This document shows positions 23,360 through 59,997 of a DNA stretch of 64,000 nt, one piece after another. Under the pieces are notes generated by a model, which did not search any database, was not told the DNA's origin, and saw nothing but the letters and a program-made list of their open reading frames with translations. Numbering within the stretch: position 1 is the stretch's first letter; each line of letters starts with the position of its first letter. A program made the position numbers and the translations under genes. The stretch covers positions 13,604,427 to 13,668,426 of the forward strand of contig OX442315.1 in the NCBI GenBank assembly GCA_949358305.1, given 5' to 3'. The DNA comes from Strigamia acuminata. Taxonomy: Eukaryota > Arthropoda > Chilopoda > Geophilomorpha > Linotaeniidae.

Positions 23360-23361
23360 CG

Positions 23362-26400: not shown

Positions 26401-26515
26401 AACAGCGAAAGAAGACGCTAAATTTGACGCAATAATGAAGCAGATGGCAGAGATTAAACTCGCCATGGCAAAAAACGAGTCAAAAAACGAGTCAGCGCAG
26501 GCGGCGAAGAAATAA
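23432..26515 (+). CDS. gag: E1 Gag (1,027 aa)
   Basis: Structural protein that packages element RNA. ATG 23432 is the first in frame after the PBS; the frame is open a little further back but only through a GTG. Residues 1 to about 560 are hydrophilic, rich in Arg, Ser, Asp, Glu and Pro, with RD/RE-type repeats. About 630-770 is the retrotransposon capsid-like region (WKAGDRFLDEVIR, AREWYQGLKGVNWDDFLMRF, MPGETIMDYDIRARLLFE). A CCHC zinc knuckle lies near the C-terminus (C975, C978, H983, C988; CFKCNQPGHYSNEC). It is longer than most Gypsy Gags because of the N-terminal charged half. The last 45 nt hold two slippery heptamers for entry into pol. Confidence 0.95.
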   Translation: MADNTRVTDSDSDANKRAGSRKGADYHLRSGGPLPKASAHEARQKRRKPKPDRRSASEASHPSRAETRQRLDETERGEEQSHSKLPRSNRDGETSGNEVLSRNQSPRLTHDTEVGSPKAASPIQKTASNTTANSALNTPVTHSRPASVVSEGHKSNSSSVKRVSSQPYSVSGTLIDAMQLAQAEGVRYTLPTGKITVYETLQIVRAALKAHSVSPQITIVEGAHAQQLVDSAQFEADAENEARQAIRERRRKLAEREAQALEYGRTQPNPTTPEEVEIVDRALRAHRYAFHSQQEAERAFMARLRRDDPKSVRKPEVSSSELSDESLEGDPKRTPKAKPKPQPERATPATPRKRDASAREQQTRPRMQALDSATNNAITRLINANNARRNEEQALTSQQQDNPQGTEWQQPVPILKDDESSRRQSHDRTSSREEGKRDERPKYYHYGNSDSSSDGLESNAPSHHDSERGSGERRRERERDERRERERDDRRRGRKESNSSRRNPPRRSPSPDPSSDPSSNDDRRKEKSSNRRKRSNSPRDREKRRRSENSDHRREEFQDLPRQSAFTDSTGRQYTMGELGRALLGSLKAEGIDLSKRNDRNRSTGDRVKKKYAVSRRDTMSVTGNIRWQFYIQNRFDGSWKAGDRFLDEVIRIKTATKATVGDMLTHGIVELMTGSAREWYQGLKGVNWDDFLMRFDLRYGETPEEVSRKMRGLRQMPGETIMDYDIRARLLFEKAPMEFHATGFNLFFLGGLSEYSQRVLLEERAPTGGSYEEMSAFLFENTIDIEKRYYSALPEAEKAATAKRLKLSAERYGATDKIMRPTEYLSGIMELAEASVGLQIKNKLTSTLPSNPLAAPKKAPTASAMQATLEEVKEGEEAGQDAGKSDKKEEKDDYSTDEEIRSYRDTLSTGCDEEGPLVHLIHRDRAVEEFRARLKPNAGRIPKYFRKNYTPPSKADPEKKKSTEAPRDKSNIRCFKCNQPGHYSNECPRTAKEDAKFDAIMKQMAEIKLAMAKNESKNESAQAAKK

Positions 26516-26533
26516 CTTCTCGACCGTCTGCGC
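26470..26533 (+). promoter_or_regulatory. E1 gag-pol -1 ribosomal frameshift signal
   Basis: Two copies of AAAAAAC (26470-26476 and 26482-26488) are both phased A_AAA_AAC in the gag frame. Six nt after the second starts a stem: 26495-26504 (GCGCAGGCGG) pairs with 26524-26533 (CCGTCTGCGC), 10 pairs with one G.U. An inner GAAG/CTTC stem (26506-26509, 26516-26519) encloses the gag stop. The -1 frame is open from the slip site into pol. Spacing and heptamer match classic retroviral -1 frameshifting; efficiency is not known. Confidence 0.85.
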
Positions 26534-29500: not shown

Positions 29501-30609
29501 CCGAGTTGTACGCCGTCGCTAGACCTTCAGCAGAGAAAATCGTTGAATGTATCTACGACGTGGCGTTACGTTACGGATTTCCACGTAAAATTATATCCGA
29601 TAACGGACCCCAATTTATCTCGAAAATTTGGGGTAAGTTTTGTGAGAAATTCGGGATTGTGGCGTCACATACTTCGACCTACAATCCCAGAACAAATCCC
29701 GTTGAGCGACTCAACAGGGACATTAAATATGCACTAAGCATATTCACTGACATCCACAATAGGTGGGATGAATACTTGAGGGAGATCGCGTTCAGCATAC
29801 GAACAACAGTCTCGAGGACGAGAGATTTTTCTCCGGCCTACCTCAACTTCGCCCGAGAGCTACGAGTGCCTTGGGACCCACGAGTGGCAGAGTCGGTAAA
29901 TGTGGTGGACCCAGAGAAACCACATGAGTATGTATATAAATTGGAGCAAACAATTTCGAGCACATACAAACATATGATGGCGCACATTTTTAACATGCGC
30001 GACCGCATTTTACAAGATAAAAGCGGTGGAAAATTTGTGAATTTCGAGAACAATGATTTAGTGTGGAAGGACACACACATCCTCTCAAATGCAGCGAGAG
30101 GAATCACCGCCAGCTTGGCCGACAAGAGAGATGGTCCGTATGTGATCATCGGCAAGCATGGCGGTAACGCGTATAAATTACGCAAGCTCGAGGACAACAC
30201 CGAGCATAAGTCGATACAAGTACGAGAGTTAACTCCGTACATTCCGGAATTCCCGCAAGAAATGTGGGCCAAAGGCCAAGTCAAGTCTAAAACTGACGGC
30301 CAAATCGTCGATATGTTCGCTGGCGAGTCGGAAAAAGCACCGCCAAGTGACAACGAGGAGTATTTCGACGCCCCTTCACCTCCGGTAAACGAGATAGTTG
30401 AATCCGTTCCGGATCCAATTTTGGTCGGGGGGGAAACAGGAGAAACTCCTGAAACAAACACAAAAAACACGGATAAAAAAGAAAACAATAATGAGGAGGT
30501 ACAGACACAAAAAACAACAAAAAATATCGTACCTGCCTCGATCCGTAACCTGCGACCAAAAAGAGATAATCCGTTCATAAAAGGCGGAAAGGTCGTAGGA
30601 AAGAAGTAA
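26488..30609 (+). CDS. pol: E1 Pol polyprotein (PR-RT-RNase H-IN), -1 frame
   Basis: Copies and integrates the element. The coordinate given is the first -1-frame codon after the slip site. An ATG exists at 26539, and numbering here is from it. Protease: LLDSGADRSF (D99). RT: GYWQVEMR, PFGLVNAPSTFQ, YLDD (Y444-D447). RNase H: HTDASRVGLGAAL (D593), ATELECLAVVWAIRKF, TDHQALQWL, VVADALSRAP. Integrase: His/Cys zinc site (HGHPLASHAG ... HQCQRCQAC), catalytic D962 (SVDVMG), D1021 (SDNGPQF) and E1056 (NPVER), then a GPY motif (DGPYVIIGK). There is no chromodomain. The tail (about 1240-1356) is acidic and Lys-rich. No inactivating change is seen. Confidence 0.95.
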   Translation, partial: RVSAGGEEITSRPSAPFMKKKGFNKGFDKPPPVKEMGSDIANAQIQDRANNALQVITANAEAEAEEPNLLLEELPQVVEDTEEFRVFMCNVAVEYTNRLCMLPMTIEREKIMGLLDSGADRSFVSEDIVASLGLTDKIKGVNKNIRLKTANGMARPKGVILLTMEWLGGVEQHPFLVLPTCDRIFLLGLDLMASMEIQPNPITKSWNYIRNDKERPAIVVPPALVKEAADKTQWEKGLKKFVQDYDFKAFVTELQRDNVVETLVADAALELNEAAALRRVLLKYEGILSKKPGRTNRAIHEIKLTDNKPIRVAYKGMNPQKREIVQKMCQEMLDSGIVSEAQGEYATRVVLVMRPGSDPRLCIDYRPLNAVTEIDPIQMPSIESILRELSPFSWVTTMDLSKGYWQVEMRPEDKLKTAFYSPIGRLMFNVMPFGLVNAPSTFQRLIESVLGDILHQFVWAYLDDIVIASKTFEEHIEHIDQVLTRLAKAGLHVHPGKSKFCRKELAFLGYRIGVNGLAIGPEKIDAINRFPPPEDVKGVQRFMGMINFFGRLLPGLAEVAAPVTDLLKNENEFVWSNECNIAFNAIKRMLTEVGVMPLPDLNRPFILHTDASRVGLGAALLQTHVRDGVEQDLPCMFISRKLQGAEKNYNATELECLAVVWAIRKFRDYLEYTKFVVHTDHQALQWLMKLKEPAGRLARWQLELMACDLTIQYKPGKYNVVADALSRAPVSDPIDADDDGEDDSRIIYCPTSCHRWDLRKMNEIPTASPADVKFCGFWTRLYQPAADNYPNARKEFKLERRINDPLLSAFHAHVGEQMQSSPPTREEIIVQQKLDKKCQDRARFVLTGKYPPNLTRRQKRRYAHESIDYLLDDGLLVKHHPNHQDDLSESDTAVKVVIPASLIGRVLWLLHGHPLASHAGVSRTLYRATQLFHWTGMKKDIALFVHQCQRCQACKPRSKSPFETIFLGPYAPFDCLSVDVMGPKPVTGNKNAYIIVIMDVATRWPELYAVARPSAEKIVECIYDVALRYGFPRKIISDNGPQFISKIWGKFCEKFGIVASHTSTYNPRTNPVERLNRDIKYALSIFTDIHNRWDEYLREIAFSIRTTVSRTRDFSPAYLNFARELRVPWDPRVAESVNVVDPEKPHEYVYKLEQTISSTYKHMMAHIFNMRDRILQDKSGGKFVNFENNDLVWKDTHILSNAARGITASLADKRDGPYVIIGKHGGNAYKLRKLEDNTEHKSIQVRELTPYIPEFPQEMWAKGQVKSKTDGQIVDMFAGESEKAPPSDNEEYFDAPSPPVNEIVESVPDPILVGGETGETPETNTKNTDKKENNNEEVQTQKTTKNIVPASIRNLRPKRDNPFIKGGKVVGKK

Positions 30610-31085
30610 AATAAATTACGAGTCGATGGCGGCACTAAAAATAAATGTAATCGACCGATAGTGCAAGCCATCACGTCGCAGAAAATTTCGCTAAGTCCAA
30701 CAAAGCGGATATCGGTCGAATTCGCGTCACGAGATGGCGTGGAAACGCGGGACCCGTAGCAAAATTATCGGCACGGGTCGGATACCGCGTGCAAAAGACC
30801 CCGTAGCAGCAATCGCGCACGGGAGTGAGAACAAAGGAGACCCGTAGCGTAACATGCGCACGGGTAGGTGCGCACTAGTCTCAAACACCCGGGTTCTGGA
30901 GTATATTACCCAGAATCCATCGCGATTACCTCGTGTTCACACAGACTTCCGCTTTTCACAGCTGATCACTGCATTCGTGCGTGATCCTCGTTTTTAACGT
31001 TTTACCGAGTTTTTCACCGAGTTTTTGAGATAGTTTTATCATCCTTTTTAAATCGTGATTGAGATTTTTGTGCGCGCTCCTCGCC
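30610..31085 (+). other. E1 spacer between pol and the third gene
   Basis: No ORF. Contains the three-hairpin cluster (30751-30866) and a GGGTTCTGG/CCCAGAATCC imperfect hairpin near 30893-30920. This is where a promoter or splice signals for the third gene would be expected. Confidence 0.5.
30751..30866 (+). ncRNA. Three tandem stem-loops of the form CCCGTAGC...GCACGGG
   Basis: Stems GACCCGT/ACGGGTC (30751-30757, 30773-30779), CCCGT/ACGGG (30800-30804, 30819-30823) and ACCCGT/ACGGGT (30840-30845, 30860-30865) recur about every 45 nt, each with AGC after the 5' arm and a GC-ending loop. The role is unknown: a structured part of the element RNA, or DNA binding sites. Only the pairing and repetition are directly seen. 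Confidence 0.4.
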
Positions 31086-34000
31086 ATGGACGAGGAAGAG
31101 AACGACGTGCTGGCCATCGAGCACGAGGACGAGGAAAACTGGGACCGCGATGTAAACCAAGTCCAGCCCGATCAGGTAGAAGTCGGCATCGGCACATGAG
31201 AACTAGTTCCGTGCTGCTGAAGAAGAAATTTTGTTGACTAATACCTGACATGAGTGCTTTGCACTCGAAATAGCGTATAATTAATTATTAACCGCGATCG
31301 CTCACACGATCGTATTTTTTTTTCCTTGTTAATTTGTTTTCGAGGTGCGAGCGCAGACTTCACGTCGCCTCGCGTCTCGAAAATTCCTCATGACTTGAGT
31401 CACGAGCGAGACAATGGGCTCGAGCCATAGATAATTTTATGACAAGGGGAGAATATTCTGTAAAAGAATATTTTTCTCCACAAGTAATTTGACGCATCGA
31501 ATTGATGCAACTTAACATTCGTACGATGAATTTTTCGGTGTGTTGGATAAATTTAATTTGACTTTAACTTTTTTAAAAAATTAGACAAAGTCCGACTTCG
31601 GAATAATTCTTTATTAGATTTATTTATTTAATAAAATTTCGACAAGCACATTTATTGTGCAATTTTAGTAATAATTTACACCCGACGAATTCTCTTTACG
31701 AATGACGGATAATTATTAATTTAATTATTAGTAATGTTCTAATTAATGTTAGAATTAATTTGAAGTAAAATCTGATGATAAGAATCCAGATTAAAGGCTC
31801 GATTCCGTCTCGCTGTGCGTTTTGGACATGAGACAGATTTTTCACGTGATGACTTCTCTTTTTCTATCCGACGAGGGACAATTCGTCCTACGTTTGCACC
31901 GATAGACAGGAATCGGTCTCGACGGACGGCTGCACGTACTGGCAACGTCCCTCGAAACCAACCATTTATCTACGTATTTAAATATTAACTTTTTATTAAT
32001 TGTTTATTTCTCCATCCTTCCAGATGGCACTACGTAAAACATGGGGACCATTAGACCCCGCTTGCATCACTCGTGGCGGGATATTTCGAGGCGCGCTGCC
32101 CGATTTTTACCGACGATGTTTCGGCGAAGACGCCGACCCTTGGCGCCTGCGAATACTACATTCCCGATGCATCGCCCGACGTTGGGTACGAGACTGTACG
32201 CTCCTGGACACGTTCCCGGAGGGGATGCGCGAAGGCATCGCCACAGAGTTAGCTCGTGACGAGGACCCGAAATCGCCAATTTTCCACCCCGGATTGTCAA
32301 GTCAGTACACTGGCAACCCGGCGGAGGAACACGTGCTGCATGCGTGGCGAGCAGCCGAGACAGAAGAGGCCCGTGAGGCCATCTACCAGCATTATAGACA
32401 ACAGCTGGTGGATACCGCTACGGCAGTGGCCGAGCGCATCCTCCAAAACGAGGGGATGACCGCGGATGATATTCATCTGTGGTTTGAGAGGCTGCGATTG
32501 GGAGAGAGTACGCCCCAGTGGAGACCTCGGATGGGAATTTTGACGTCCCAAGCCGAGATGTGGCAGCTCCACTACCTGGGGATTTTGGGGCCCAAGAGCA
32601 GCTACCCGCGGAAGCGCAAGCGCTCCAAAGGCGCCGGGGACAGCCAGTCGCGTTCCCCAGCGACAACCAAGAAGCAGCGTGTCGCTCAAAACACGACTGA
32701 AGGCAACGAAGCTGGGCCATCCACTAGTACGGTGCGTGACCCTTCGCAGTATTCCCGACCGCGAATTTTCATAAACCGTCAGATTAAAGACGGTAAGGAG
32801 TGCAAGGAGGTTTGGATGTCTGGTGACGAAGAGCGAGTCTCTCGTCCCAGCACTTCTAGACGTCCGCTGACTCATCGCGAGCAGCGGAAAAAAGATCGCA
32901 AAGAGCGATACTTCGCGAGGTGCGAAGCTCGGGGCCGTCCCATCCCCGAACCCGCCTACGCCTCCAAGAGAGCGGGTCGACGAGGTGGTAGCCAGTCAGG
33001 TGAGCGAAACGTCCCAGCGGCAGATACGCGGGACCTTCGCGAGATTCTGACTCAGATGAAGCGGACGAAACTGACACGTTTCGATCCCGCGATGAAACAC
33101 GCCAGGAAGATGGGTGTTGTCACCGACGGGAAGGTGACCCCACACGAGGTGGCAAGGTGGCTCGCAGACTACATTAATTCGCGACCACGACCCGATGGCA
33201 TGCCAACCGCCATCGTGCAGCCTTCAGGCTCCGGACAACATCTCCCGGCGCTCCAAGTCGCAATGACTGGAGTGCAGACGACGGAGACGCCACCACCGCC
33301 GACGCAGCCAACACCACCGCTGCCGACGCCGACGCTGCCGACCAAGACGCAGCCGCCTCCGAACCTGCCGCCGCCGTCGTTGTTGAATTCGAGCGATCCG
33401 CCGGATTTACCCACCGACCGCTCAGTCCCTCTCCCCGTTGGACAGAGCATTGCGCAGGAATGTCGAGCCAATTTGACCGGCATTTACAGGCCGAGCCAAC
33501 CCCGATCCGGTTCCTCGGCCCTGTTTTTCGAGAGGCGAGACGAAGAAGCGCGACTCGCGAGAGAAGCCGCCAATCCGACTATCTCCGAGCTCTCAGCGTT
33601 TCGCTTCGTGATGGAAGACCCAAGAGTCTCCGCGCCCGCCTTGCGAGGTGTGGATCAGGCCCAGCGATATTTCATCGAATGGGCAACGGCGATGATGAGT
33701 AAGCTCTCGTGTGCCTTCACTGCGGATTCGGAGCGATCGAATCCAGTGAATCGTCGCAGCCTACAGCTATCATTGACCAAGGTCATGATGCAGCTGCTAA
33801 CCCCAGCACTCTTCGGAGAAGGGCGTCAGGCGATGGCCGCATGGTCTGTCGTGGACAGAGAGGGTGTACAGGTTCCCCGTGCACTCCTCGCAGAGTGGAG
33901 CTCCATTCTGCCCGACCCTGTGTTGACTCGGTACGAGCTAACCAGGGATGTGGTAAACCCCGAATTTGAGGGGTACAAGTTGCGAAGCACGGCGTTTCGT

Positions 34001-34789
34001 TATACCTCCGCCACCTGGACAGCGGCGCCTACCCAACAACTGCGCGCCTTGACCATCCAGACGGAAGAATCGGCAGAGGATGTAGAAATGGTGATCTCGC
34101 CGACGAGCGGAGTTCCGATTCCGCCACCGATGCCTGCGGAGATATCCCCGCAAGGACCCGCCCTGTTCGAAGTGGCGGGTAAACCAAAGCGCTTGCTGTG
34201 CCGAACGCCACCCGTCAGGTCCGTCGAGCAAACGAAGCCGACACCGCCCGGGACCTCACCGGCCCGAGCGGCGACAACGACGCAAGCCGCTATTCCCGCG
34301 GCCACCCAGAAGCCGAAGCCGGCACCGCCTCCGCCAGACTATTACGGGCGAATCATCGAAGAGTTTCCCCATCTCTCGATGACGACGGCGACCAGGAGGT
34401 TTATCCTCGCGCAGCGGGACAAAGGCAAATCAGTCTTCATCTGGCTTCACAACCAGATCCGGAAGACTAGAGACCTCATCTTCCACCAGAGGTTGCTGAG
34501 AGCCCACCGTGTGCCAGTGACGCCAGCGGAAGCCAATGCCATCCGGCATACGAACACCGGCTTCTCCGCCTACATCCCGAGCGTTTGGTTACACGAGAGG
34601 ACGCGTGCCCCGCATGAGCCAGTTGACGGCCATGCATTATGCTTCATTACGGAGCATGAGGACCCCCGAGATCGGTCCTCGGCGTTAGTAGGCGATCTAC
34701 CCGCGCCACCCGGCACTCAACCGCCTGTCCCTGGAGTGAGTTACGCCCAGGTGACGGACTCAGTGTCGGGTCCCCCAGGAAAGAAGTGA
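31086..34789 (+). CDS. E1 third gene, spliced (951 aa), non-env accessory protein
   Basis: Exon 1 (31086-31175) is 30 codons from ATG (MDEEENDVLAIEH...), ending CAG|GTAGAAGT. The acceptor TCTCCATCCTTCCAG ends at 32023, and exon 2 (32024-34789) starts ATGGCACTACGT. Both junctions are phase 0. N-terminal exon 2 has IFRGALPDFYRRCF and DPWRLRI. The middle is basic, then strongly Pro/Thr-rich (33280-33400). The C-terminal domain has VFIWLHNQIR (about residues 834-843), RLLRA and VWLHE. No signal peptide or membrane span is visible, so it is not a conventional Env. E2 carries a diverged homologue with the same exon plan. Function unknown. Translation could also begin at the exon 2 ATG. Confidence 0.75.
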
Positions 34790-47657: not shown

Positions 47658-48616
47658 TGTGGTGATCTCAAAATATTCACCAACTTAGAAGATTAAATTA
47701 ATTATCTTCTAATTAATTTGACTGTGGCACACGCCAAGTCAGATCATGTGACCGAGGGGAGAAATCCTCTCTAGGCACATATCACCCCAGGTTGTCCGGG
47801 GTGAAAACGGTTATTAGCCGTTATGGTGCAATATGGTGTAATAACCACTAGTTGCACCCATTTGAGCTAAGTGCGCAGGTTTTCTGCGCAATATTGAAGC
47901 GTGCTGGGCTCGCGTCTTGGCTCAAATCGGGACTCTGAAAAATACAACAACAACCTCAACATCACTGCTTTTGCTCCTGAAAGAAAAGTATTGATAGAGG
48001 ACCGTTGTAACTCAGTTTCACCTGCTATCTTTGTGTATCAAACGCACAAAGCCAGCAATCCTGCTTGAATTAGCCGTCGCTAATTCCAGCAATCGAGAAG
48101 AGAAGATTCCCGACGATCGTGAACCATCGCCGTCGCTGTTGCGCGAACGACAGCCACCGCCATCGTACGAAAGCCGGACGCCTACAGCCGTCAACCACCG
48201 CCGCCGAGCCGTCGCACGAGCCGTAGAAGGAGCCCACGAGAACCATCGTCTTCGACCATCGTTCGTGAGTTCGTAGAACGAAGACAATTTGCCTTCGCCT
48301 AACAACTTCAAGTTGTTTAAGCGCCATTTCTGACGCTTTGTAGCTTGCAACAGTCGTTGCAAGCCCTTCCTTTGTTTCATTGTTTCCCGCTCATTTTATT
48401 CTGTGATATTCATAATCATAATTAGTATATATTGTAATTTATCGAATAAAACATTTGTGTGATTTTTATTACCATAATAAACTGTCTTTTTATTCCTATT
48501 TCCGTAAACTTAACCCTAGACAAGTTTCGGCCGCGATATAAGTCTTGTAAAGCATTCACCTGCGGTTTCTGCTTAATTTATTAGAAATTAAGTGGATAAA
48601 AACCCGGATCGCAGCA
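47658..48616 (+). repeat. E2 5' LTR
   Basis: 959 bp. The GC-rich centre (48050-48260) has GAACCATCGCCGTCG-type repeats, with an AATAAA signal at 48445-48450. The end AAAACCCGGATCGCAGCA is the hallmark shared with four relic LTRs here. Confidence 0.95.
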
Positions 48617-48618
48617 CG

Positions 48619-48730: not shown

Positions 48731-51700
48731 ATGGCGACTCCAAGTGAAAAGAGACCGAGAGGCAGACCGGCGAAGAGACGAGTGGCCATCGATCTACCAG
48801 TCGTGGATCAAGAAGTGACTGAGTCACAAGAACTGTTTGAAACTATGGATCAAACAGCTAACTGTAACTCGGCACAGTTAATCGTGAATGAATTCACGCA
48901 AGCGTTGGAGCGACAACAGCCATCCCCGCCAAGCGGCCAGTTGGACTTAAACAATCCAACTGGAAGTGGCCGTTCCAAGTCGCAAAACGATGATTTGAAT
49001 TTACGAATTCAATCATCAAGTGCGGAGCACTCGCTGAATTCATCACCGGTTCAAGGTGCAGCACAACAAGATTCTGAGAACTCCAATATGGAAGTTTCTC
49101 ATTCTCCCGTGCGTGTTACCATGATGGACGCACTCCGTGAGCAAGCTAGGCTCGAGGGAGTAAAAGTCACTAGCGAAATGACTGTGGAACAAATCCACAA
49201 AGCTATGGTTCGCAAACAAAGCCAAAAAGACGTTGAAATCGTCAGAACAAGCTTACAAGCAGAGTTTGAGCGAATGCATGCAGAAATGCAGCAGCAAAAT
49301 GCCGAACTAAAACAACAACGTGCGAATGATCACGTTAAGTTGTTACAATTAGAGCAGGAAAAAGCTTCCTGGCTAATTACTGACGAAGAGCAACAACAAA
49401 GGCTCGAGCAACTAAATCAAGCCCAAAAAGATTTAGAAATTGCTAATGAAAATTTGAGATTGGCCAACGCAAATTTGCGAGAAGCCAACACAAATTTAAT
49501 GACTGCCGAACTAACCGCCCCAGTTCGAGCGAGGGAAGTAATTCCCTCCACTTCTCGAAATTACGAGAATTATGCTGCAGAGCAAGCAGCAAGAGCTAAG
49601 AGATTAGCACAACGAGAAAACGAAGTATTTCTCGCTCGACAGCAGTCTGTAATTGATGCTGGTCAAGCTGCCAAAAGTCAAAGTACTGCAGAGCAGTTAT
49701 TACGTGCCGACTTAGCTGCGCAAGCTCGTGAAAACGAAATTCTTCGCGCAGATCTATTGACGGTACAAGAGAACTTTGCAGTAGTCGTACAAAAGGTACA
49801 AGACGTTTGTGGCGAAGATAATTTTGCAAAGCCAGCCCCAGTTTTGCAAAAAGGTGCTTCCAAATCACCTGAGTTGATTGATTTAACATCAGCTAAACCA
49901 AAAGTCAGTCGACAATCAAGTTGGACTGACAGTGATGACTCACGCAGTAGTCGTGGAAGCCGCAATAGTCATCACAGTCGCAAAAAGCGAAAGCGACAAC
50001 CAGACCCGACCGAATATCATTCCCCAAACGTTCCGCAAAATTCGGATCGATTCTTTAGCAATAGTGACCGATTAATCGGATTGCTAGAGAGAAAAAATAA
50101 AGAACGTGAGAAACCACACGATCGTGGACGGTCACACGATAATCCGCGAGAAGGCTCACCAAAACGCGATTGTCATAACGACATCCGTGATGGGCCGAGA
50201 TACCGTGGAAATCCGCCAGGTGGTGACCCACCAGGTGGAGATAGTTCAGATGGACATGGAGGTGGCCACTCACGTGACCACAATTCGAATGGCAATCGAA
50301 ATGGAAGGGGACCACCAAATGGAGACCGTCGTCCGCCAGATGGCGACGATCCTCCGGACCCCGATCCGCCGCCAAATCCGAATTATGAATCTGCGTCTGA
50401 TACAGATTCCTCACGCCCCAGTGTGAGAGGGCGATCTCGTCACAGAACACGTAGTAGAACTCAAAGACCCGATTTCTACACGAAAGATGAGATTGACCAG
50501 TTGTTGAGGCAAAATGCTCAACAACAGCGAAAAAGCAGAAGGGATAAAATTATTTTGCAAAAAATAAGTGAATTTACTTCTGATAAATGGATTCATCAAA
50601 CAACAGATGAAAAGTTCATTAGATGGGATCGAGTTATCCCACATGCCTATAATGGAAATTGGCAAGCAGGGTCAAACCTCTTGCTGGAAATATTCGAACT
50701 AGGCAAAGTTCACAGTTTTAGCTGTGAAGGTGCATTGGCCCATCTAGTACCAAGAATACTAGTTGGCGGTGTCAAGGAGTGGTTTCGCAGGAAAAACTTC
50801 ACGAAGTGGGATGACTTCGTTAAACAATTTATGTTTAAATTTGGTGAATCGAGCGAAGACATCAAGACGCTCTGGAGATGTCTTAAGCAACGAAAAGGCG
50901 AAAGCTTACATTCGTACATGCTAAGAGCAGAGAATCTGCTTGGCAGAATGCCACATGCTGTTACTGATGCAACAGCAGATGATCAGTTTAGAGCTGGCCT
51001 CACAGAATATAGTAAAAATATTCTGATGATGTCGGACGCTCCCGACCCGGGGAAATTCTCCGAGTTAAACGAGTTCATGGAAGTCAATCAATTGCGCATT
51101 GACGAAAAGTACAAAGCTTATCTTACAGAAGCCGAAAGGTCAGCGTACTTAAAGCGAGAGAAAAGACTCGCTGAGCAAAACAATGAAACCTTTAATGGTT
51201 TGAAATTGTTGCAGCCACCTAGTTACGAAGACTTTCTAGACGAAGTGGATGAGAAGAGTTCGAAAAAAGAATCTTCCAAAAAGGACGTCAAAAATCCTCA
51301 TTCAGTCCCTAAGTTACACGCCAATATAACTGGAGCTGAAACTCCGCCATCTGAAGCTGAAGAAGCTGAAGAGGAGGAGGAAACGGGAGACGAGACGTTG
51401 GCTTTATTAGCCAAAGCAGCGGCGCTGTTAGCAAAAAATAACCCCGTTGCAGGCAAATGGAAGCCAAAAATGAAACCAAAAAATGTTTCATTTGACGCAT
51501 CAAAGGTGAATACCGAAAGGAATTCAAAATCACCCGCGGTGTCGCCAGAGCGCCGGTCTGACGCTCGTTCTCGTTCTGCCTCGCCAGCAGCAACGAAAAA
51601 GAAATCGCCTGCCACTGATCCATGCAATTTATGCAAAAAATTAGGGCATTGGCAAAAAGACTGCCCTTCCTCTAAAAAGGACAAACCAGTGTCAACAGCT

Positions 51701-51754
51701 GAGTTTGAAAAAGCAGTCAAGATCATAACTGACATGTTTCGAAAAAACTTGTAG
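48731..51754 (+). CDS. gag: E2 Gag (1,007 aa)
   Basis: The first ATG after the PBS opens the frame. The N-terminus has a basic AT-hook-like PRGRPAKRR stretch. Residues about 177-256 are a Gln/Glu/Leu-rich coiled coil, and about 430-590 a Ser/Arg/Gly/Pro-rich linker. The capsid-like region is about 640-770 (WQAGSNLLLEIFELG, VKEWFRRKNFTKWDDFVKQF, GESLHSYMLRAENLL). The CCHC zinc knuckle is C965, C968, H973, C978 (CNLCKKLGHWQKDC). The capsid and knuckle align with E1 Gag, but the N-terminal halves differ. The slippery heptamer lies two codons before the stop. Confidence 0.95.
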   Translation: MATPSEKRPRGRPAKRRVAIDLPVVDQEVTESQELFETMDQTANCNSAQLIVNEFTQALERQQPSPPSGQLDLNNPTGSGRSKSQNDDLNLRIQSSSAEHSLNSSPVQGAAQQDSENSNMEVSHSPVRVTMMDALREQARLEGVKVTSEMTVEQIHKAMVRKQSQKDVEIVRTSLQAEFERMHAEMQQQNAELKQQRANDHVKLLQLEQEKASWLITDEEQQQRLEQLNQAQKDLEIANENLRLANANLREANTNLMTAELTAPVRAREVIPSTSRNYENYAAEQAARAKRLAQRENEVFLARQQSVIDAGQAAKSQSTAEQLLRADLAAQARENEILRADLLTVQENFAVVVQKVQDVCGEDNFAKPAPVLQKGASKSPELIDLTSAKPKVSRQSSWTDSDDSRSSRGSRNSHHSRKKRKRQPDPTEYHSPNVPQNSDRFFSNSDRLIGLLERKNKEREKPHDRGRSHDNPREGSPKRDCHNDIRDGPRYRGNPPGGDPPGGDSSDGHGGGHSRDHNSNGNRNGRGPPNGDRRPPDGDDPPDPDPPPNPNYESASDTDSSRPSVRGRSRHRTRSRTQRPDFYTKDEIDQLLRQNAQQQRKSRRDKIILQKISEFTSDKWIHQTTDEKFIRWDRVIPHAYNGNWQAGSNLLLEIFELGKVHSFSCEGALAHLVPRILVGGVKEWFRRKNFTKWDDFVKQFMFKFGESSEDIKTLWRCLKQRKGESLHSYMLRAENLLGRMPHAVTDATADDQFRAGLTEYSKNILMMSDAPDPGKFSELNEFMEVNQLRIDEKYKAYLTEAERSAYLKREKRLAEQNNETFNGLKLLQPPSYEDFLDEVDEKSSKKESSKKDVKNPHSVPKLHANITGAETPPSEAEEAEEEEETGDETLALLAKAAALLAKNNPVAGKWKPKMKPKNVSFDASKVNTERNSKSPAVSPERRSDARSRSASPAATKKKSPATDPCNLCKKLGHWQKDCPSSKKDKPVSTAEFEKAVKIITDMFRKNL

Positions 51755-51788
51755 ACGCAGATCCATCAGGTCTAGTGGACGCTGCGTC
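51742..51788 (+). promoter_or_regulatory. E2 gag-pol -1 ribosomal frameshift signal
   Basis: AAAAAAC (51742-51748), phased A_AAA_AAC, is followed after 5 nt by a stem of 51754-51760 (GACGCAG) with 51782-51788 (CTGCGTC), a perfect 7 bp. An inner TCCA/TGGA stem is at 51762-51765 and 51776-51779. The -1 frame has no stop from the slip into pol and no early ATG, which argues for frameshifting over re-initiation. Confidence 0.88.
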
Positions 51789-54700
51789 ACCTCCGAAATC
51801 GGAATCAGAGAATGAAAATCTGAAGATAATGGAAGATGTTGGAGAAGCTATTGATGAATTAATTCGTCAAACTGAACTAAAAGAAAATGGATCTCTTGAT
51901 GTAAAAAAGGAGATTGTCGGCGAAACCCCGACTGAAGAAGACACTTCCAATATTCAAGATAAAGTCGAAGTTAAAGACGATAGACCAAGCTCAGTTCCAG
52001 AGACACCTGGAATTGAGGAATGCATTAAGTTATTTGCAACTACAACTCTTGATACCAATGAGTTATTAGATGAATTGCCTTTGGAGCCTCCAATTACAAT
52101 TCCTCATAAATTGCGCAAGTTTGAGTGCAAAGTGGCTGGAATACCAAACAGCCAAGACCTTCCGACGTTAAAGTTAGAAACGTTAAAAGGTGTAATAACC
52201 GGAATGTTGGACTCAGGAGCAAATAAAAGCTTCCTAGCCACTTCAGTTATTAATCAATTAGGTCTAGAAAAATATCTACGACCTATCGGACCTGGTGTCA
52301 GAGTTACGACGGCAAGTGAAGAAGTCACTCCAGATGGAACCATCCATCTTTCATTTCGATGGACACATGGCACGTTACGTCATCCGTTCATCGTAATACC
52401 AAATAAGTATCCAATGGTACTATTGGGTTGCGATTTTATGAATAAATTAAAAATCCAACCTAATCCACAGACGATGTCTTGGAATTTCACGCAACCTATG
52501 GATGCAGATTTACCCTACATTCCACAAGCGTTGCTGGATCGTTATTTGGAGAAAATAGAGGAACCCGATTCCTCATTTATGACCTTTGCAAAAGCTTACG
52601 CTGCAAGTGTAACTCAAGGCAAAATTGATGAAGAGAATTTCATCCAAAAGTTAGTCGAAGAAGCTAACTTAAATTTGGAGCAATCCAAATTATTAGAAAA
52701 GATGTTATCCAAACATAAAAGGATTATTTCTAAAGATCCAGGTAAAACACACCTGGTTAAGCACAAAATTGAGCTTGACACGGAGAAACCCATCCGTGTC
52801 CCCTTTAAGAGCATAAACCCTCAAAAAAGGAAAATAATCAGACAACTTTGTCAAGACATGATTGACAAAGGCGTAGTCGTCAAAGCTGAAGGCGATTACG
52901 GAATGCGGCCAGTCCTAGTCATGCGACCAGGAAACGACCCACGCTTGTGCATTGATTTTCGCCCCATCAATACACATACTAAGTACAACCCACCTCAAAT
53001 GCCAACAATTGAGGAAATTCTGCGAGAAATCGGAGAATTCGAATGGGTCAGTACTATAGATCTGACCAAGGGATATTGGCAGATAGAATTGCGCCCTGAA
53101 GACAGAGAAAAGACTGCCTTCTGGAGCCCAATGGGAAGACTAATGTTTTTAGTCATGCCTTTCGGATTAGTAAACGCACCAACTACTTTCCAAGAATTGA
53201 TGGAAAAGGTTTTGGGTGACGTTTACAGAAAATTTGCATGGGCATATTTGGATGACATAATTGTTGTATCCAAATCGTTCGAAGAACACATTAAACATTT
53301 AGATATAGTGTTTAAAAAATTGGCAGAAGCTAATTTACATGCGCACCCTGGCAAGACGCATCTCTGTAGAAAGGAATTAATTTTTCTAGGCTACAAAGTA
53401 GGAGTAGAAGGACTTGCAGTAGACCCTAAAAAAGTCGCTGCAATTACGCAATTTCCGGCTCCTACCAATCTTAAGGAATTACAAAGATTTCTAGGCATGG
53501 TGAATTTCTTTCACCGCCTAATCAAGAATTTGGCCACAGTGGCAGAACCACTAAGGCCTCTCTTGAAGAAAGATGCGGAGTTCGATTGGGAACTGCATCA
53601 TCAGGCAGCATTCGACGCAATAAAAGACTTGCTTACGAATGCTGAAACAATGAAGATGCCTGACTTGTACATGCCATTTATTGTTCATACTGACGCCAGT
53701 AAACAAGGGTTGGGTGCAGCCCTTACACAAAAGAAAATTGTGGATGGCCAAGAAGTCGAAATGCCATGCGTGTATGCAAGCAGAAGCTTGCAACCCGCTG
53801 AAAAGAATTATACTGTGACAGAATTAGAATGTCTCGCAGTAGTATGGGGATTACGCAAATTTCGCCCATACTTAGAGTACACTACATTCACTGTACAAAC
53901 GGATCACCAAGCACTTAAGTGGTTGATGTCGTTATCTGACCCGTCGGGCAGATTAGCTCGTTGGCAAATGGAGCTGATGGCGTATTCGTTCGAAATACAA
54001 TACGTCAAAGGTCCGCTAAATGTAATAGCAGACGCATTGTCACGTGCACCTGTCAGCGCACCTGACGAACCAGAAGACGATGGCGATAATGATGATTTAT
54101 TATCATATTGTCCATCTCCTTGCCGAAGTTGGCAAATGGGAAAATTGAACGAATTACCCAAGTCAATAATAGTTAATGACGACGATCAAGCATTAATTAA
54201 TTTTTGTATTAACATGCATGATCCGTCAGGAACCCCTGACGTCGAATTAAGAGCTATGATGGCTAAAAAATTCGAGCTGCCAACAACAAATGTTTTAATT
54301 AAAGCATTTGCAGCTAAAATTGCGAAGCAATTAGAATGTGATCCTCCAACGAGAGATGACATTATTGCAGCGCAAAAAGCAGACGAATTTTGCCAACATA
54401 TTCGCAATTACTTGCTAAACAAGCAATATCCAAGTTACATAGTAACTCGTCTTCAAAGAAGAAACTTTGAAAGACACGCGAGTACTTATCTCATTGAAGA
54501 AGATATGCTACTCCATTATCATCCTACCTCCACCGATGAATTGGGAGAGGATGGTAGGGCACTTAAAGTTGTTGTGCCAAGAAAATTGATTTATAAAATC
54601 ATTTGGTTGATGCACGGACATCCACTGTCCGGCCACCCAGGCATTGCGAGGACAATGTACCGAACTCGAAGAGTTTATACCTGGAAAGGTATGAAACGTG

Positions 54701-56001
54701 ATATTACACGTTTTATTCAACATTGTCAAGGATGTCAGGCATGTAAGCCGAGATCAAAGACCGAAATTGAAGGCGCTCAAATTGGACCATTTGGACCATT
54801 TGACTGCCTCAGTGTGGATTTGTCTGGTCCCAAACCAAGAACCAGAAAAAACAATACCCACATTTGCGTCATCGTAGATGTCGCTACACATTGGCCCGAA
54901 TTATTTCCAATGTGTAATCCAACGGCAATAAAAGTTGCCAACACAATTTATCACTTATCAATGACTTTCGGATTTCCGAGACAAATCATAAGTGATAATG
55001 GACCACAATTTCGATCACAGGTCTATAAAGAATTTTGCAAAAAATTCGACATGTCGCGAACACCGACATCGATTTATCATCCACAAAGCAATCCTGTGGA
55101 GAGAACCAATCGAGATATTAAATATTTAGTTTCGATTTATTTAGATATTCATGACCAATGGGATGAGTATCTACGCGAATTTGCATTCAGTTTGAGAACA
55201 ACTGTAACAAGAGGCAGAGATTATTCTCCTGCTTTCTTAAATTTTTTCCGAGAATTAAGAATTCCTTGGGATCCAAGAATTCCGGAAGGAATTTTAGTCA
55301 TTGATCCAAAAAATCCGCATTTATATGTTCAGAAATTAGAAACAATAATTGCAGAGACGTATCAGCATATGATGTCTCACGTCTTAGATTTGAGACGCCG
55401 TGTCGAAGCTGAAAAATCAGATAAGAAATTCGACAACTTCAGACAAAATGATTTAGTCTGGCGAGAGTCTCATATTCTCTCAAATGCCGCTAAAGGAATA
55501 GCAGCAGGCATTTCACCGAAAAGGAATGGGCCTTATGTAATTATCAAAAGGTTACAAGGAGGCGCCTTTCAACTTCGACGGCTGAGTGATAATAAAATTT
55601 ATCCAGCTGTTCACGGCACTGAATTAATGCCGTACTTTCCCGTTTTCAACCAAGAAATTTGGCTGGAAGGGGAGGAAGTGGGTCAAAAAACAAAAAATAT
55701 TGTTAATACCTTGGATGATGCTAAATTATCCAAAATTCCTGTCGAAAACACGGAATCGAGTAAAAAATCGAAACTCAAAAATAACGAAGTCGATGAAATA
55801 AACAAGCGACTTGAAAATGTTTCTCTTGATGAAAATCTAGAAAAGGAAATGTTTTTAGAAAAAGAGAAAATTTCAAACAATGAAGTATATAACTCATCTG
55901 ACATTGGAGACGATGCTGATGACAATCTAAACAAGTTGGATTGTACTTCGCGAAAGTCAAAGTACAACTTGAGATCTCGCGTTCCGCGAGCCAAGACATA
56001 G
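51748..56001 (+). CDS. pol: E2 Pol polyprotein (PR-RT-RNase H-IN), -1 frame
   Basis: The coordinate is the first -1 codon. Residue numbers below count from the GTG codon at 51775. Protease: MLDSGANKSF (D146). RT: GYWQIELRPEDREKTAFWSP, PFGLVNAPTTFQ, YLDD (Y491-D494). RNase H: HTDASKQGLGAAL (D640), TELECLAVVWGLRKF, TDHQALKWL, VIADALSRAP. Integrase: GHPLSGHPGIARTMYR and QHCQGCQACKPRSK zinc site, D1015 (SVDLSG), D1074 (SDNGPQF), E1109 (NPVER), GPY motif NGPYVIIKR. The acidic, Lys-rich tail ends KYNLRSRVPRAKT. Clearly homologous to E1 Pol along its length, but diverged. No inactivating change is seen. Confidence 0.95.
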   Translation, partial: LVDADPSGLVDAASPPKSESENENLKIMEDVGEAIDELIRQTELKENGSLDVKKEIVGETPTEEDTSNIQDKVEVKDDRPSSVPETPGIEECIKLFATTTLDTNELLDELPLEPPITIPHKLRKFECKVAGIPNSQDLPTLKLETLKGVITGMLDSGANKSFLATSVINQLGLEKYLRPIGPGVRVTTASEEVTPDGTIHLSFRWTHGTLRHPFIVIPNKYPMVLLGCDFMNKLKIQPNPQTMSWNFTQPMDADLPYIPQALLDRYLEKIEEPDSSFMTFAKAYAASVTQGKIDEENFIQKLVEEANLNLEQSKLLEKMLSKHKRIISKDPGKTHLVKHKIELDTEKPIRVPFKSINPQKRKIIRQLCQDMIDKGVVVKAEGDYGMRPVLVMRPGNDPRLCIDFRPINTHTKYNPPQMPTIEEILREIGEFEWVSTIDLTKGYWQIELRPEDREKTAFWSPMGRLMFLVMPFGLVNAPTTFQELMEKVLGDVYRKFAWAYLDDIIVVSKSFEEHIKHLDIVFKKLAEANLHAHPGKTHLCRKELIFLGYKVGVEGLAVDPKKVAAITQFPAPTNLKELQRFLGMVNFFHRLIKNLATVAEPLRPLLKKDAEFDWELHHQAAFDAIKDLLTNAETMKMPDLYMPFIVHTDASKQGLGAALTQKKIVDGQEVEMPCVYASRSLQPAEKNYTVTELECLAVVWGLRKFRPYLEYTTFTVQTDHQALKWLMSLSDPSGRLARWQMELMAYSFEIQYVKGPLNVIADALSRAPVSAPDEPEDDGDNDDLLSYCPSPCRSWQMGKLNELPKSIIVNDDDQALINFCINMHDPSGTPDVELRAMMAKKFELPTTNVLIKAFAAKIAKQLECDPPTRDDIIAAQKADEFCQHIRNYLLNKQYPSYIVTRLQRRNFERHASTYLIEEDMLLHYHPTSTDELGEDGRALKVVVPRKLIYKIIWLMHGHPLSGHPGIARTMYRTRRVYTWKGMKRDITRFIQHCQGCQACKPRSKTEIEGAQIGPFGPFDCLSVDLSGPKPRTRKNNTHICVIVDVATHWPELFPMCNPTAIKVANTIYHLSMTFGFPRQIISDNGPQFRSQVYKEFCKKFDMSRTPTSIYHPQSNPVERTNRDIKYLVSIYLDIHDQWDEYLREFAFSLRTTVTRGRDYSPAFLNFFRELRIPWDPRIPEGILVIDPKNPHLYVQKLETIIAETYQHMMSHVLDLRRRVEAEKSDKKFDNFRQNDLVWRESHILSNAAKGIAAGISPKRNGPYVIIKRLQGGAFQLRRLSDNKIYPAVHGTELMPYFPVFNQEIWLEGEEVGQKTKNIVNTLDDAKLSKIPVENTESSKKSKLKNNEVDEINKRLENVSLDENLEKEMFLEKEKISNNEVYNSSDIGDDADDNLNKLDCTSRKSKYNLRSRVPRAKT

Positions 56002-56039
56002 TGTTGTCTTTCACCTTTTGGGTTTACCCAAAAGATCCG

Positions 56040-56239: not shown

Positions 56240-56343
56240 GTAAGTAATTTTTCTGTATGAAAAATTTGATAAAACATAAGATTTATGTATTATTTCTCTT
56301 TCAAGACGAAAGAATTTCCGAAATTACCGGAAAACGAAAGAGA

Positions 56344-58986
56344 ATGGACGAGGAAGCGATCCAACTCCAGGCGGACGGAGAAATGCCCATGGAAGGGGCA
56401 AATGAAGACGTTCAATTGACGCTTCAACAACGGGTAAATTATTAGAATAAATTTTTACCAAGTGTTTAAGTCAGAAAAATTGAGTAATTTCACTTTTCCT
56501 GACTTCAAACACAAGCCGCTAAAAAATAAAAATGGCGGCTATAAAAGTCACGTGCTTCAAGCATGTGCGAAGGGAGTTGCCATGACAACCAACATCCCTT
56601 AGTGACTCACAGCCACAAGCGCTAAGCTTAAAAAATATTTCAAATAAGAAATTATTTGTTTATTTTTAAATAAACTAATTTATTTATTTTTCTTCGAATA
56701 TAGATCGAGAGGGATCGAGAAACGCCATTCGCGCTTCCCGATCACGTGCCGACTCAGCACCCGCTGATTTTTCGAGCGGCATTGCCCGAAAAAATCAGAA
56801 GACTGAAGACGGCAAACAATACCTGGTGGAAGTTGCGCCACGACTTCAGCAGATCAGCGCTGCAAGGATTTGGTGCAAAAGGAAGATTCATCGAGCGCCT
56901 TCACGTGGACGGTGTCGATGAAATCGAGTGGACGCTCGACGAGAGCCCCCCAGGACCGCTTGCAGCAGAGTTGCTGCACAACCAGTGGCCAGTGACGCCA
57001 CGAGAGCGTCACGAGCGCAGAAGAGCGCTAAAGAGTACCGGAATTAATTACGGTGCTCTAACCCAATTGAGGAAGAACCTCAAGACGACACAACGCGAAG
57101 TCGTTAAACGGTATCGCAAATCCGTTCGTGACGGGAACCCACAACTTCCCGTCACACAAACCGAGCTCCACCAGTTGGCGCTCGCCGGGTGTTTTAACGA
57201 TTTTCCGGGATTTTTCCCGTCCAAAGCACTCCGAGCTGCCGCGGTGCAGCTTCGCGTCGACGAAAATCGACAACTGGCTCGAGAACACGAGGCAGAGGAG
57301 CAAGCGCGTTGCGCTCTCCCTTTTTATCAAGAAGATGAAATTCCGGCCCCAGCGGCCATCAATCCTCCGCCGCAAGACGAGGATTTGAGGGTGGGGCAAC
57401 TCCCTCCGCCGGTTCCAGTCCGACCGATGTTCCGCGAATCAAGCCGCGATCAAGAGGAACGTCAGAGGCGATCACGCCCATATTCGACTGACGCGCAGCC
57501 ATCACGCCCGCAGTCGCGACGAGGACGGACACCAGAGTCGTTTGGCTCGTCGTCTTCGCTGAGTTTTGAATCGGACTCCACAATTAAGTCCGCCCGAAGT
57601 AGCCGAACCGCCTCCACGTTCAAAGTGGACAACTCGGCTACTCCATACGCCATGAGACGTGTTGTCGGTGATATTTCTCCCGACTGTAGCGTGCCAGTAC
57701 CTGGACATGCTAGCCGCTTGCCCGAACAAGGATATGTTTCCCGCTTGCCGGCTGGAGTTAGCAACCTGCAACTCCGGCCATTTTTTAGTGAGTCATTCGG
57801 CCCACAATGGACCTGCTACGAGCAGCAACCCATTAGAGCACAGCAGGAAGTGCTCCAGAAGCTGGACGCATACCAAAGCGCCCAGATCGCCGAGTCGCAG
57901 AAGGACTGGCAGAGACTAGCTGAAAGGCTAGAAGTCTCCGACATCAATACCATTGATGATCCCCGTCTGATGGATTTTCAGCGTCAGCTAATTCCGGGGA
58001 TGACTAGGGTGTTGTACCCTGGTGTTCTTCCTTCGCCAGGACAGGCGTTAGCGGCCATAACGTACCTTTGGACCGCGCCGATGGGCCTGTCGGAGAAGAA
58101 AGTCGAGCTGTGGTACCACCTCAGGCTCGACCCGCCTACGATCTTAGCCGAGCTAATAAAGCAAGTCGTAGCAAACGGTGAGACCGAAGAAGAGGCCGCC
58201 GTTCGGTTGCGAACCGAGTGGTCCTTTGCGAAGGCCACGGCGCGAATGGCCGGAAGACCACCGCTTCCAGTTACAAGCGCCACAGCAGCTGCGTCACTGG
58301 CTGTTTTCCAGTCGGCCCAAGAGGGCGCTGGATGTTCATTTTGGCCAGAGAACGCCGGAAGTTCTCAAACTCCAGCCGGAGTTCAACGGGTAGTCGAAAC
58401 CCGTCAGCTCCCCGGTGTGGGTCGAGCACCGGGACGAGGCGTCACACCCTCGTCAACCTCCGCACCCGCGTTGGTTTTCTTGGGCCCGCAGTGCCAGTTT
58501 GACGATGCCACGACGGAAGACTCACGTCCGCCGCCGCCGCCGCCAGCCAAGCCGGAGACGAAGGTCAAGCCGCTGAAAAAAGAGTCGGCTTTCAAGACCC
58601 TAATGCGCCTGTATCCGCACTTCTATTTGACGCCGGATACGCGAACACTGCTTAGCAACAACCACAAGTTGTCGAGGCAGGTGTTTATGTGGCTCGAGGA
58701 CCACATCCGGGTGTTAAGCCCACCATCGGTGCTCCATGATCGACTCCTGAGAGCACGATTAGCGCCAGAGGATCCAATCGAGTTCGCGGCGCTAGGATTC
58801 TTCAACCGAGCGAACTCGGCAAGAATCATCCAGGTTTGGCTTCATGTCAACCCTGGAATGGTCTCCGGACCAAACGCAGGTCGCGACCTGTGTACGGTTA
58901 ACGAGCGGTCCAACCCGAGGGACGACACCACGGATATGATGCGCCCGTTGACGCCTGAGCGAACTCAGACTATGGACGAATCATAA
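56344..58986 (+). CDS. E2 third gene, spliced (790 aa), non-env accessory protein
   Basis: Exon 1 (56344-56433) is 30 codons, starting MDEEAIQLQADGEMPM and ending at CGG|GTAAAT. The acceptor TTATTTTTCTTCGAATATAG ends at 56703; exon 2 (56704-58986) is phase 0. Exon 2 has no ATG near its start, so splicing is needed for the full protein. N-terminal exon 2: PLIFRAALPEKIRRL and NTWWKLRHDF. The middle is Arg/Ser/Pro-rich; 58520-58570 is a poly-Pro stretch. The C-terminal domain has VFMWLEDHIR (about residues 690-699), DRLLRARLAPE and VWLHV, matching E1. No signal peptide, membrane span or enzyme motif. Function unknown. Confidence 0.8.
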
Positions 58987-59025
58987 ATTGGTTCGTTCAT
59001 TTTCTCTCCATGTAAGATTCGTCTT

Positions 59026-59038
59026 AAATGGGGGGATG
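59026..59038 (+). other. E2 polypurine tract
   Basis: AAATGGGGGGATG abuts the 3' LTR; mostly purine. Confidence 0.7.
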
Positions 59039-59997
59039 TGTGGTGATCTCAAAATATTCACCAACTTAGAAGATTAAATTAATTATCTTCTAATTAATTT
59101 GACTGTGGCACACGCCAAGTCAGATCATGTGACCGAGGGGAGAAATCCTCTCTAGGCACATATCACCCCAGGTTGTCCGGGGTGAAAACGGTTATTAGCC
59201 GTTATGGTGCAATATGGTGTAATAACCACTAGTTGCACCCATTTGAGCTAAGTGCGCAGGTTTTCTGCGCAATATTGAAGCGTGCTGGGCTCGCGTCTTG
59301 GCTCAAATCGGGACTCTGAAAAATACAACAACAACCTCAACATCACTGCTTTTGCTCCTGAAAGAAAAGTATTGATAGAGGACCGTTGTAACTCAGTTTC
59401 ACCTGCTATCTTTGTGTATCAAACGCACAAAGCCAGCAATCCTGCTTGAATTAGCCGTCGCTAATTCCAGCAATCGAGAAGAGAAGATTCCCGACGATCG
59501 TGAACCATCGCCGTCGCTGTTGCGCGAACGACAGCCACCGCCATCGTACGAAAGCCGGACGCCTACAGCCGTCAACCACCGCCGCCGAGCCGTCGCACGA
59601 GCCGTAGAAGGAGCCCACGAGAACCATCGTCTTCGACCATCGTTCGTGAGTTCGTAGAACGAAGACAATTTGCCTTCGCCTAACAACTTCAAGTTGTTTA
59701 AGCGCCATTTCTGACGCTTTGTAGCTTGCAACAGTCGTTGCAAGCCCTTCCTTTGTTTCATTGTTTCCCGCTCATTTTATTCTGTGATATTCATAATCAT
59801 AATTAGTATATATTGTAATTTATCGAATAAAACATTTGTGTGATTTTTATTACCATAATAAACTGTCTTTTTATTCCTATTTCCGTAAACTTAACCCTAG
59901 ACAAGTTTCGGCCGCGATATAAGTCTTGTAAAGCATTCACCTGCGGTTTCTGCTTAATTTATTAGAAATTAAGTGGATAAAAACCCGGATCGCAGCA
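59039..59997 (+). repeat. E2 3' LTR
   Basis: 959 bp, no difference from the 5' LTR seen by eye. Confidence 0.95.

Follow-up and report, generated by a model that had tools for sequence, protein, structure and literature searches.

A split third gene downstream of pol, conserved between two Gypsy-type elements of Strigamia acuminata

What kind of gene lies between pol and the 3′ long terminal repeat (LTR) of two Gypsy-type elements, and why does it carry an intron? The question is raised by a stretch of 64,000 nucleotides of the Strigamia acuminata genome (assembly GCA_949358305.1, contig OX442315.1, positions 13,604,427 to 13,668,426 of the forward strand; hereafter the window), which holds two complete Gypsy-type LTR elements, E1 and E2, each with a third gene after pol. 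An initial annotation, made from the letters alone, had proposed that this gene has the same exon design in both elements, that it is a lineage trait, and that it reflects long-term selection on an undescribed accessory protein. The parts of the gene are as follows.

56240..56305, plus strand: upstream intron of the E2 third gene, 66 nt
56306..56433, plus strand: E2 exon 1, in which an ATG-free leader of 38 nt precedes the 30 codons (MDEE...LQQR) that begin at 56344
56434..56703, plus strand: E2 intron, 270 nt, phase 0
56704..58986, plus strand: E2 exon 2, 760 codons, with conserved blocks at about residues 22-103 (N-terminal) and at residues 630-746 (C-terminal)
30864..30961, plus strand: upstream intron of the E1 third gene, predicted only, 98 nt, with an alternative acceptor ending at 30944
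31086..31175, plus strand: E1 exon 1, 30 codons (MDEE...PDQ)
31176..32023, plus strand: E1 intron, 848 nt, phase 0
32024..34789, plus strand: E1 exon 2, 921 codons, ATG being the first codon

The coding part of E2 exon 1 (56344-56433) comprises exactly 30 codons, MDEEAIQLQADGEMPMEGANEDVQLTLQQR, and the intron that follows has GTAAAT as its donor after CGG and ends at 56703 with the acceptor ATATAG before ATC. The first in-frame Met of E2 exon 2 is codon 242. The annotated exon design holds for E2 in all its parts (30-codon MDEE exon, phase-0 junction, no early ATG in exon 2), while the supposed lack of a nearby ATG had to be given up for E1, whose exon 2 opens with one. In both elements exon 2 is located between the stop of pol and the 3′ LTR and is free of stop codons over 2.3 kb (E2) and 2.8 kb (E1), where 21 and 26 stops were expected from dinucleotide-matched random sequence (0/300 random sequences open in either case). 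The introns are A+T-rich, with a GC content of 0.30 and 0.36 versus 0.53-0.60 in the flanking exons. Exon 2 (GC 0.57-0.60; 0.59-0.65 at third codon positions) is clearly richer in GC than the pol gene that precedes it (0.40-0.47), which may betray a separate origin. Coding periodicity in exon 1, measured as GC at first minus second codon positions, reached 0.67 in E1 and 0.50 in E2, values equalled in 7/4703 and 98/4703 open, overlapping host windows, respectively, and the encoded peptides are acidic (13 and 8 D+E residues in E1 and E2, one K+R each). The equal length of the two exons is weak by itself, as 3/54 candidate exon pairs agree in length. In a consensus-score scan for splice sites, the E1 exon-1 donor ranked only sixth in its region, the 66-nt upstream intron of E2 combined the second-best donor with the best acceptor of its region, and the 98-nt upstream intron of E1 the best donor with the second-best acceptor. 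What settles the split gene model is not equal length or splice-site rank, but the existence of natural intron-free copies.

These copies were found by searching the assembly to which the window belongs (237.5 Mb, 157 contigs) for exact words spanning the junctions, a count that copies with a mismatch escape. The joined exon 1-exon 2 word of E2 occurred in 2 places versus 68 with the unspliced donor, and that of E1 in 1 place versus 67 unspliced. All three intron-free copies (two E2, one E1) have the junctions exactly as predicted, with the sequence ATGGACGAGGAA, and are open from the ATG across the junction (789, 789 and 951 codons); each retains pol upstream and the 3′ LTR downstream, with no new stop within the pol stretch compared. 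Since they keep pol, the 3′ LTR and exact junctions, they derive from long element RNA that was reverse-transcribed after splicing had taken out the intron, and they prove the gene model. Furthermore, the E2 intron-free copy on contig C8 (L051) also lacks 56240-56305, an intron that the scan had predicted before any copy was examined, while the other (L050) keeps these 66 nt; an exact-word search for the 66-nt junction returned 0 matches because L051 has a nearby mismatch. The E1 intron-free copy (L055) retains the upstream stretch 30864-30961, and the corresponding junction, formed with the acceptor that ends at 30961, had 0 exact matches genome-wide, a weak negative since the stretch after the acceptor is itself exact in only 5 places. 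The third-gene intron was present at 135/138 exact sites of E1 and E2 together. Because copying spliced RNA removes an intron permanently, this persistence suggests that packaging of spliced RNA is rare or else that elements lacking the intron do not succeed. Moreover, intron position and phase coincide between E1 and E2, whose pol proteins are 49% identical, and so we infer that the intron is older than the split between the two elements and has been kept since.

Judging from their alignment, the E1 and E2 third proteins are homologous at both ends. The initial annotation had pointed to shared motifs (IFRxALP near the start; VFxWLxxxIR, RLLRA and VWLH at the end), all of which were found in both proteins, and the expected similarity proved to lie far above that of shuffled sequence: the full exon 2 alignment scored 206 versus a shuffle maximum of 78 (reached by 0/200 shuffles), and the C-terminal part 182 versus 62 (0/500). 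By BLASTP, the C-termini are 32% identical over 117 residues (E 1e-15) and the N-terminal regions 29% identical over 85 residues (E 4e-4); the score of the N-terminal 110 aa was reached by 0/500 shuffles and that of the N-terminal 60 aa by 1/500. The middle of the exon 2 protein is similar only at chance level (89/200 shuffles reach the score). The exon 1 peptides are alike in length, phase, start word and acidity; beyond MDEE their sequences differ, and their similarity is not significant (148/500). The longest DNA word common to the pol-to-exon-2 regions of E1 and E2, ATGGACGAGGAAG, lies exactly at both start codons, and a word of that length occurred anywhere in 4/200 random pairs. The C-terminal match was confined to frame pair 0/0 (182 versus 20-32 in the eight other pairs), and identities at the three codon positions of this block were 0.46/0.58/0.30 (difference 0.13-0.31, 95% bootstrap interval), so that it is the protein, rather than the DNA, that has been kept. 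For the N-terminal block, the bootstrap interval of the codon-position difference touches zero. These identities stand in for the ratio of nonsynonymous to synonymous divergence (dN/dS) proposed as a check at the outset, because synonymous changes (dS) between E1 and E2 are saturated.

The state of the gene in other copies was assessed on the best 59 of 1484 candidates for the E2 third protein, the window copy included, and on the best 150 of 1179 candidates for the C-terminal part of E1. The match was stop-free in 57/59 scored E2 copies, and 0/150 scored E1 copies had a stop inside the 161-aa match; the open frames of the latter, counted by eye, were of 911-960 aa in 132 cases, of 1838 aa in 5, and shorter in 13. 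The third gene is not decayed among the scored copies, and the loss of the frame in most other family copies, which the initial annotation had raised as evidence against selection, did not appear among them. One of the five copies with the longest frame was examined: at L056 (G000:C1:31455100-31461000), an internal deletion has brought pol, up to 30557, into frame with the second half of exon 2, starting at 33358; the resulting open frame of 1838 aa retains the C-terminal domain.

Polymorphism was counted over 48 E2 loci, which represent 45 of the 59 scored places (L003/L010, L004/L011 and L005/L012 are duplicates, and L002 is the window copy); two of the loci are without the intron. Compared to the window copy, exon 2 showed 72 synonymous and 31 nonsynonymous alleles and 2 stops across the 45 places, giving a per-site ratio of nonsynonymous to synonymous polymorphism (pN/pS) of ~0.14 (559.7 synonymous and 1720.3 nonsynonymous sites), or 0.15 for single-place alleles, in copies chosen by protein score, which pushes the ratio down. 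Exon 1 coding DNA was identical in 46/48 loci. At L016 the start codon of exon 1 is lost. L028 (G000:C8:12656966-12660022) has an exon 2 near that of E2 (12 substitutions) next to an exon 1 coding stretch that is 76% identical, with no MDE start found in this diverged region, and is possibly a recombinant with another subfamily. Low variability of the intron (4 alleles over 270 sites versus 66 synonymous alleles over 560 sites, L028-only alleles excluded) was also considered as evidence; it was dropped because 20 of the 72 synonymous alleles fall within 190 nt at the beginning of exon 2, a patch that might stem from another subfamily. Searches of the genome for further families with single proteins returned mostly near-identical copies. 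The C-terminal block, by its codon pattern, is under purifying selection, and long-term selection on an undescribed accessory protein is well supported by the shared intron position and phase at the observed pol divergence together with the codon-position identities. The wording "lineage trait" fits insofar as E1 and E2 both have the gene, that is, two families in one genome.

The protein itself resembles little that we searched. Pfam gave no match for the E2 third protein and, for E1, only one unrelated match below the cut-off (E 0.27); no membrane segment was detected in exon 2 (highest 19-residue hydropathy 1.07 and 1.01), and the E1 and E2 proteins have no more than two aligned cysteines in common. 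A normal Env identity was rejected for lack of a hydrophobic segment and of an Env family match. A Gag-like origin was also rejected: against their own Gag, the third proteins scored no better than shuffles (110/200 and 161/200 reach the score), and the Gag capsid profile matched the helical and C-terminal regions with hhalign probabilities of 0.3 and 0.8 percent (two sequences per profile). Among 5.8 billion predicted proteins, neither the E2 third protein (7997 scored candidates) nor the C-terminal part of E1 (1433 candidates) had a homologue. Pol had 357 matches in the same collection, the 120 listed being at 32-45% identity, and since only distant pol relatives are within its reach, the absence of third-protein homologues from it says little. 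IMG/VR held no match for the third gene or for pol, a PDB search by sequence gave nothing better than E 0.19, and no description of this gene was among the open-licence papers listed by literature searches, where absence is weak evidence. On these sequence comparisons, the third-protein family seems new.

What could such a protein do? Our tentative preference, which we place somewhat short of an even chance, is a nuclear regulator of the element's own RNA, comparable to retroviral Rev or to CERV of the Caenorhabditis element Cer1. The element would keep two RNA classes, an unspliced one serving as genome and gag-pol message and a spliced one encoding the third protein. Obtainable from the spliced class alone, the protein would report that splicing has occurred and would help the unspliced class to be exported, stabilised or packaged, letting intron-bearing genomic RNA out of the nucleus. 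Such a role would also account for the persistence of the intron, which a single reverse transcription of spliced RNA eliminates irreversibly. In favour of a nuclear regulator, we count the split-gene logic, the five K-[KR]-x-[KR] nuclear-signal-like motifs of the E1 third protein (0.67 expected; 1/300 shuffles), the absence of membrane features, the conserved ends and variable middle, and the lack of a Pfam match above the cut-off. CERV is a precedent, being needed for genomic RNA export in Cer1 (PMC10309623). A wider proposal, that Gypsy elements own a circuit like that of Rev and the Rev-response element (RRE), is, in our view, only slightly less probable: an intron predating the E1/E2 split would gate a novel nuclear protein made only from spliced RNA and licensing the unspliced genome, a "complex retrovirus" strategy in Metaviridae separate from those of retroviruses and Cer1, with the intron-free strays as its failures.

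Several observations weigh against this regulator. The E2 third protein has a single basic motif versus 0.46 expected, and leucine-rich, export-signal-like motifs do not exceed shuffles in either protein. Structure models are poor, with a mean predicted local distance difference test score (pLDDT) of 38 for the C-terminal domain and 36 for the whole of exon 2. CERV has a cysteine-rich loop and shares exons with gag, whereas the resemblance of the third protein to its own Gag does not exceed that of shuffled sequence. Finally, the intron RNA folds well (z -6.8 in E2; -11.4, and -7.4 on a rerun, in E1), yet not specially: the E2 intron window ranks 8/159, and the E1 intron comes third among itself and 10 coding windows. 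The intron had first looked strong as a special RNA-structure element and was dropped after this whole-element control. Since folding extends along the whole of both elements, a response element within the intron is not demonstrated.

This pervasive folding deserves mention in its own right. Versus synonymous-codon shuffles, z of the summed folding energy was -7.6 (gag), -12.2 (pol) and -5.6 (exon 2) in E1 and -8.8, -15.1 and -7.2 in E2, compared to -5.4 and -4.7 for Escherichia coli rpoB and rpoC, and the gain in folding energy was 23% for E1 pol and 36% for E2 pol versus 8-9% for the two bacterial genes. The pol antisense strands also fold well (z -6.6 in E1 and -13.7 in E2), and host windows had median z values of 0.0 to -1.4, with some far lower. 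Genome-scale ordered RNA structure occurs in some RNA viruses, which the folding of E1 and E2 resembles; a literature search listed no report of it in retrotransposons.

Other roles for the third protein have to be weighed against the same data. It might be an antagonist of host silencing, acting on PIWI-interacting RNA (piRNA), small interfering RNA (siRNA) or chromatin, fast-evolving, mostly disordered and made early from spliced RNA. Conserved ends around an unalignable middle would suit a host-facing factor, the nuclear-signal-like motifs of E1 fit, and both families have many members (59 and 150 scored copies), with young copies in the window, as their identical LTRs indicate. We nevertheless regard it as unlikely: the pN/pS value, at least for recent times and for copies chosen by protein score, points to constraint rather than adaptive change, no Pfam match above the cut-off supports it, and the retained intron would be left unexplained. 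Equally unlikely, in our view, is a particle or trafficking component, whether an additional structural protein or a stand-in for Env without fusion activity, spliced like env mRNAs. Its position and splicing recall Drosophila errantivirus env with its short peptide-coding exon (PMC12992720), and residues 375-515 of the E2 protein are mostly helical in a low-confidence model, but the errantiviral short exon sits upstream of gag and not after pol, the third protein lacks a membrane-like segment, and its match to the Gag capsid profile, at two sequences per profile, is negligible.

Capture of a host gene that merely rides along and contributes little to the element would account for the GC content of exon 2 relative to pol and for the presence of introns, as in host genes. 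It is improbable all the same, since the gene is common to two families whose pol proteins have diverged to half identity, is open in 57/59 scored E2 copies and 132/150 scored E1 copies and is constrained at the protein level; no homologue appeared among the predicted proteins either, though that collection holds only distant pol relatives. A degenerate envelope glycoprotein shares with the third gene only its position after pol and its splicing, and the lack of a hydrophobic segment in exon 2, of an Env family match and of more than two aligned cysteines makes it very improbable indeed. The elements that carry the gene are composed as follows.

22343-35842, plus strand: E1, complete Gypsy-type LTR element with LTRs of 1017 nt
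22339-22342 and 35843-35846: target-site duplication of E1, ATAG
22343..23359, plus strand: E1 5′ LTR, 1017 nt, identical to the 3′ LTR (34826-35842)
23432..26515, plus strand: E1 gag
26458..30609, plus strand: E1 pol open frame
47658-59997, plus strand: E2, complete Gypsy-type LTR element with LTRs of 959 nt
47654-47657 and 59998-60001: target-site duplication of E2, ACTT
47658..48616, plus strand: E2 5′ LTR, 959 nt, 100% identical to the 3′ LTR
48731..51754, plus strand: E2 gag, its CCHC knuckle scoring slightly below the Pfam cut-off
51733..56001, plus strand: E2 pol open frame (protease, reverse transcriptase, RNase H, integrase)
59039..59997, plus strand: E2 3′ LTR

The gag and pol frames are open in both elements, and pol has a protease domain as well as reverse transcriptase, RNase H and then integrase, which is the Gypsy order. 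Since the LTR pair is 100% identical in each, both insertions are recent. The initial description of their LTRs as different was correct, with no match above 150 nt at E 1e-10, while the two gag proteins are alike only in part (BLASTP E 0.16; tblastn E 5e-32 over 203 residues). Primer-binding sites begin two bases past the LTR (23362-23379 in E1, 48619-48636 in E2) and read TGGGGGCC[TC]GTCCGGGAT, apparently close to the tRNA-Pro site of murine retroviruses. Directly upstream of the E2 third gene stand two perfect TGACGTCA words (56054-56061 and 56110-56117, 48 bp apart), a cAMP-response-element-like (CRE-like) word; it was found 4 times in the whole window versus 0.82 expected and not at all in the E1 counterpart region, and the pair is a possible internal promoter. 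A fragment at 1220-1558 shares 82% identity with the first part of the E2 LTR and, as tblastn found no other E2 coding match within the window, is probably a solo-LTR remnant of a relative. From ~7100 to 22340, and again from 35843, the window holds a tandem array of 3246-bp units, with diverged copies elsewhere, the units having a minus-strand open reading frame (ORF) for a small, secreted-looking, histidine-rich peptide; E1 is inserted within one unit, and the empty site is visible in four others.

Rex follows the same logic as Rev, a protein from spliced RNA that serves unspliced RNA, and Rev is far smaller than the third protein. In contrast to both, the third protein has no above-chance export signal and no demonstrated response element. 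The logic itself, described for Rev in PMC10309623 and PMC3315495, is what we propose for the third gene. The closest analogue of that gene is CERV, which is likewise encoded by spliced RNA and whose last exon occupies the place of env in a Gypsy/Ty3 element. Cer1 genomic RNA has to escape the very splicing that yields CERV mRNA (PMC10309623, PMC3315495), and CERV is reported to have no obvious homology outside nematodes (PMC10309623). CERV has 517 aa and five exons, exons 1-3 being in the gag frame, whereas the 30-codon exon of E1 and E2 follows pol and does not belong to gag. Insect errantiviruses (ZAM, idefix and others) also read env-F after pol from spliced RNA, and in some subclades splicing links a short peptide-coding exon, which lies upstream of gag, to the main exon of env, the product being a fusion glycoprotein (PMC12992720). 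The third gene likewise splices its main exon to a short upstream exon, but one located after pol, and where env-F has a signal peptide, furin site, fusion peptide and transmembrane domain, the third protein has no transmembrane-like segment. Third ORFs (ORF3s) of bdelloid rotifer LTR retrotransposons are diverse, non-Env and said to be expressed from spliced messages (PMC5408684); they include GDSL esterases, DEDDy exonucleases, coiled-coil and transmembrane proteins, while the third protein matches no Pfam family above the cut-off. The additional ORFs of plant LTR retrotransposons are conserved between pol and the 3′ LTR and in some cases reported to be spliced (Bagy2; PMC7264820). Those ORFs belong to plant hosts, some being transmembrane and some antisense, and are likened to the third gene by description.

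Non-Env third genes and their splicing are known; what is new here is that such an accessory gene, placed after pol, has an intron of old standing that has been maintained. To our knowledge, the nuclear exit of intron-bearing LTR-element RNA has been worked out for some retroviruses and for little else besides Cer1. For Cer1 it is described in PMC10309623. E1 and E2 add a natural system in which a split accessory gene shows protein-level constraint and its splicing is recorded by intron-free copies. They also caution against labelling every ORF after pol "env", and intron-free retrocopies can be used generally, where a genome lacks transcript data, to test whether a third gene is spliced.
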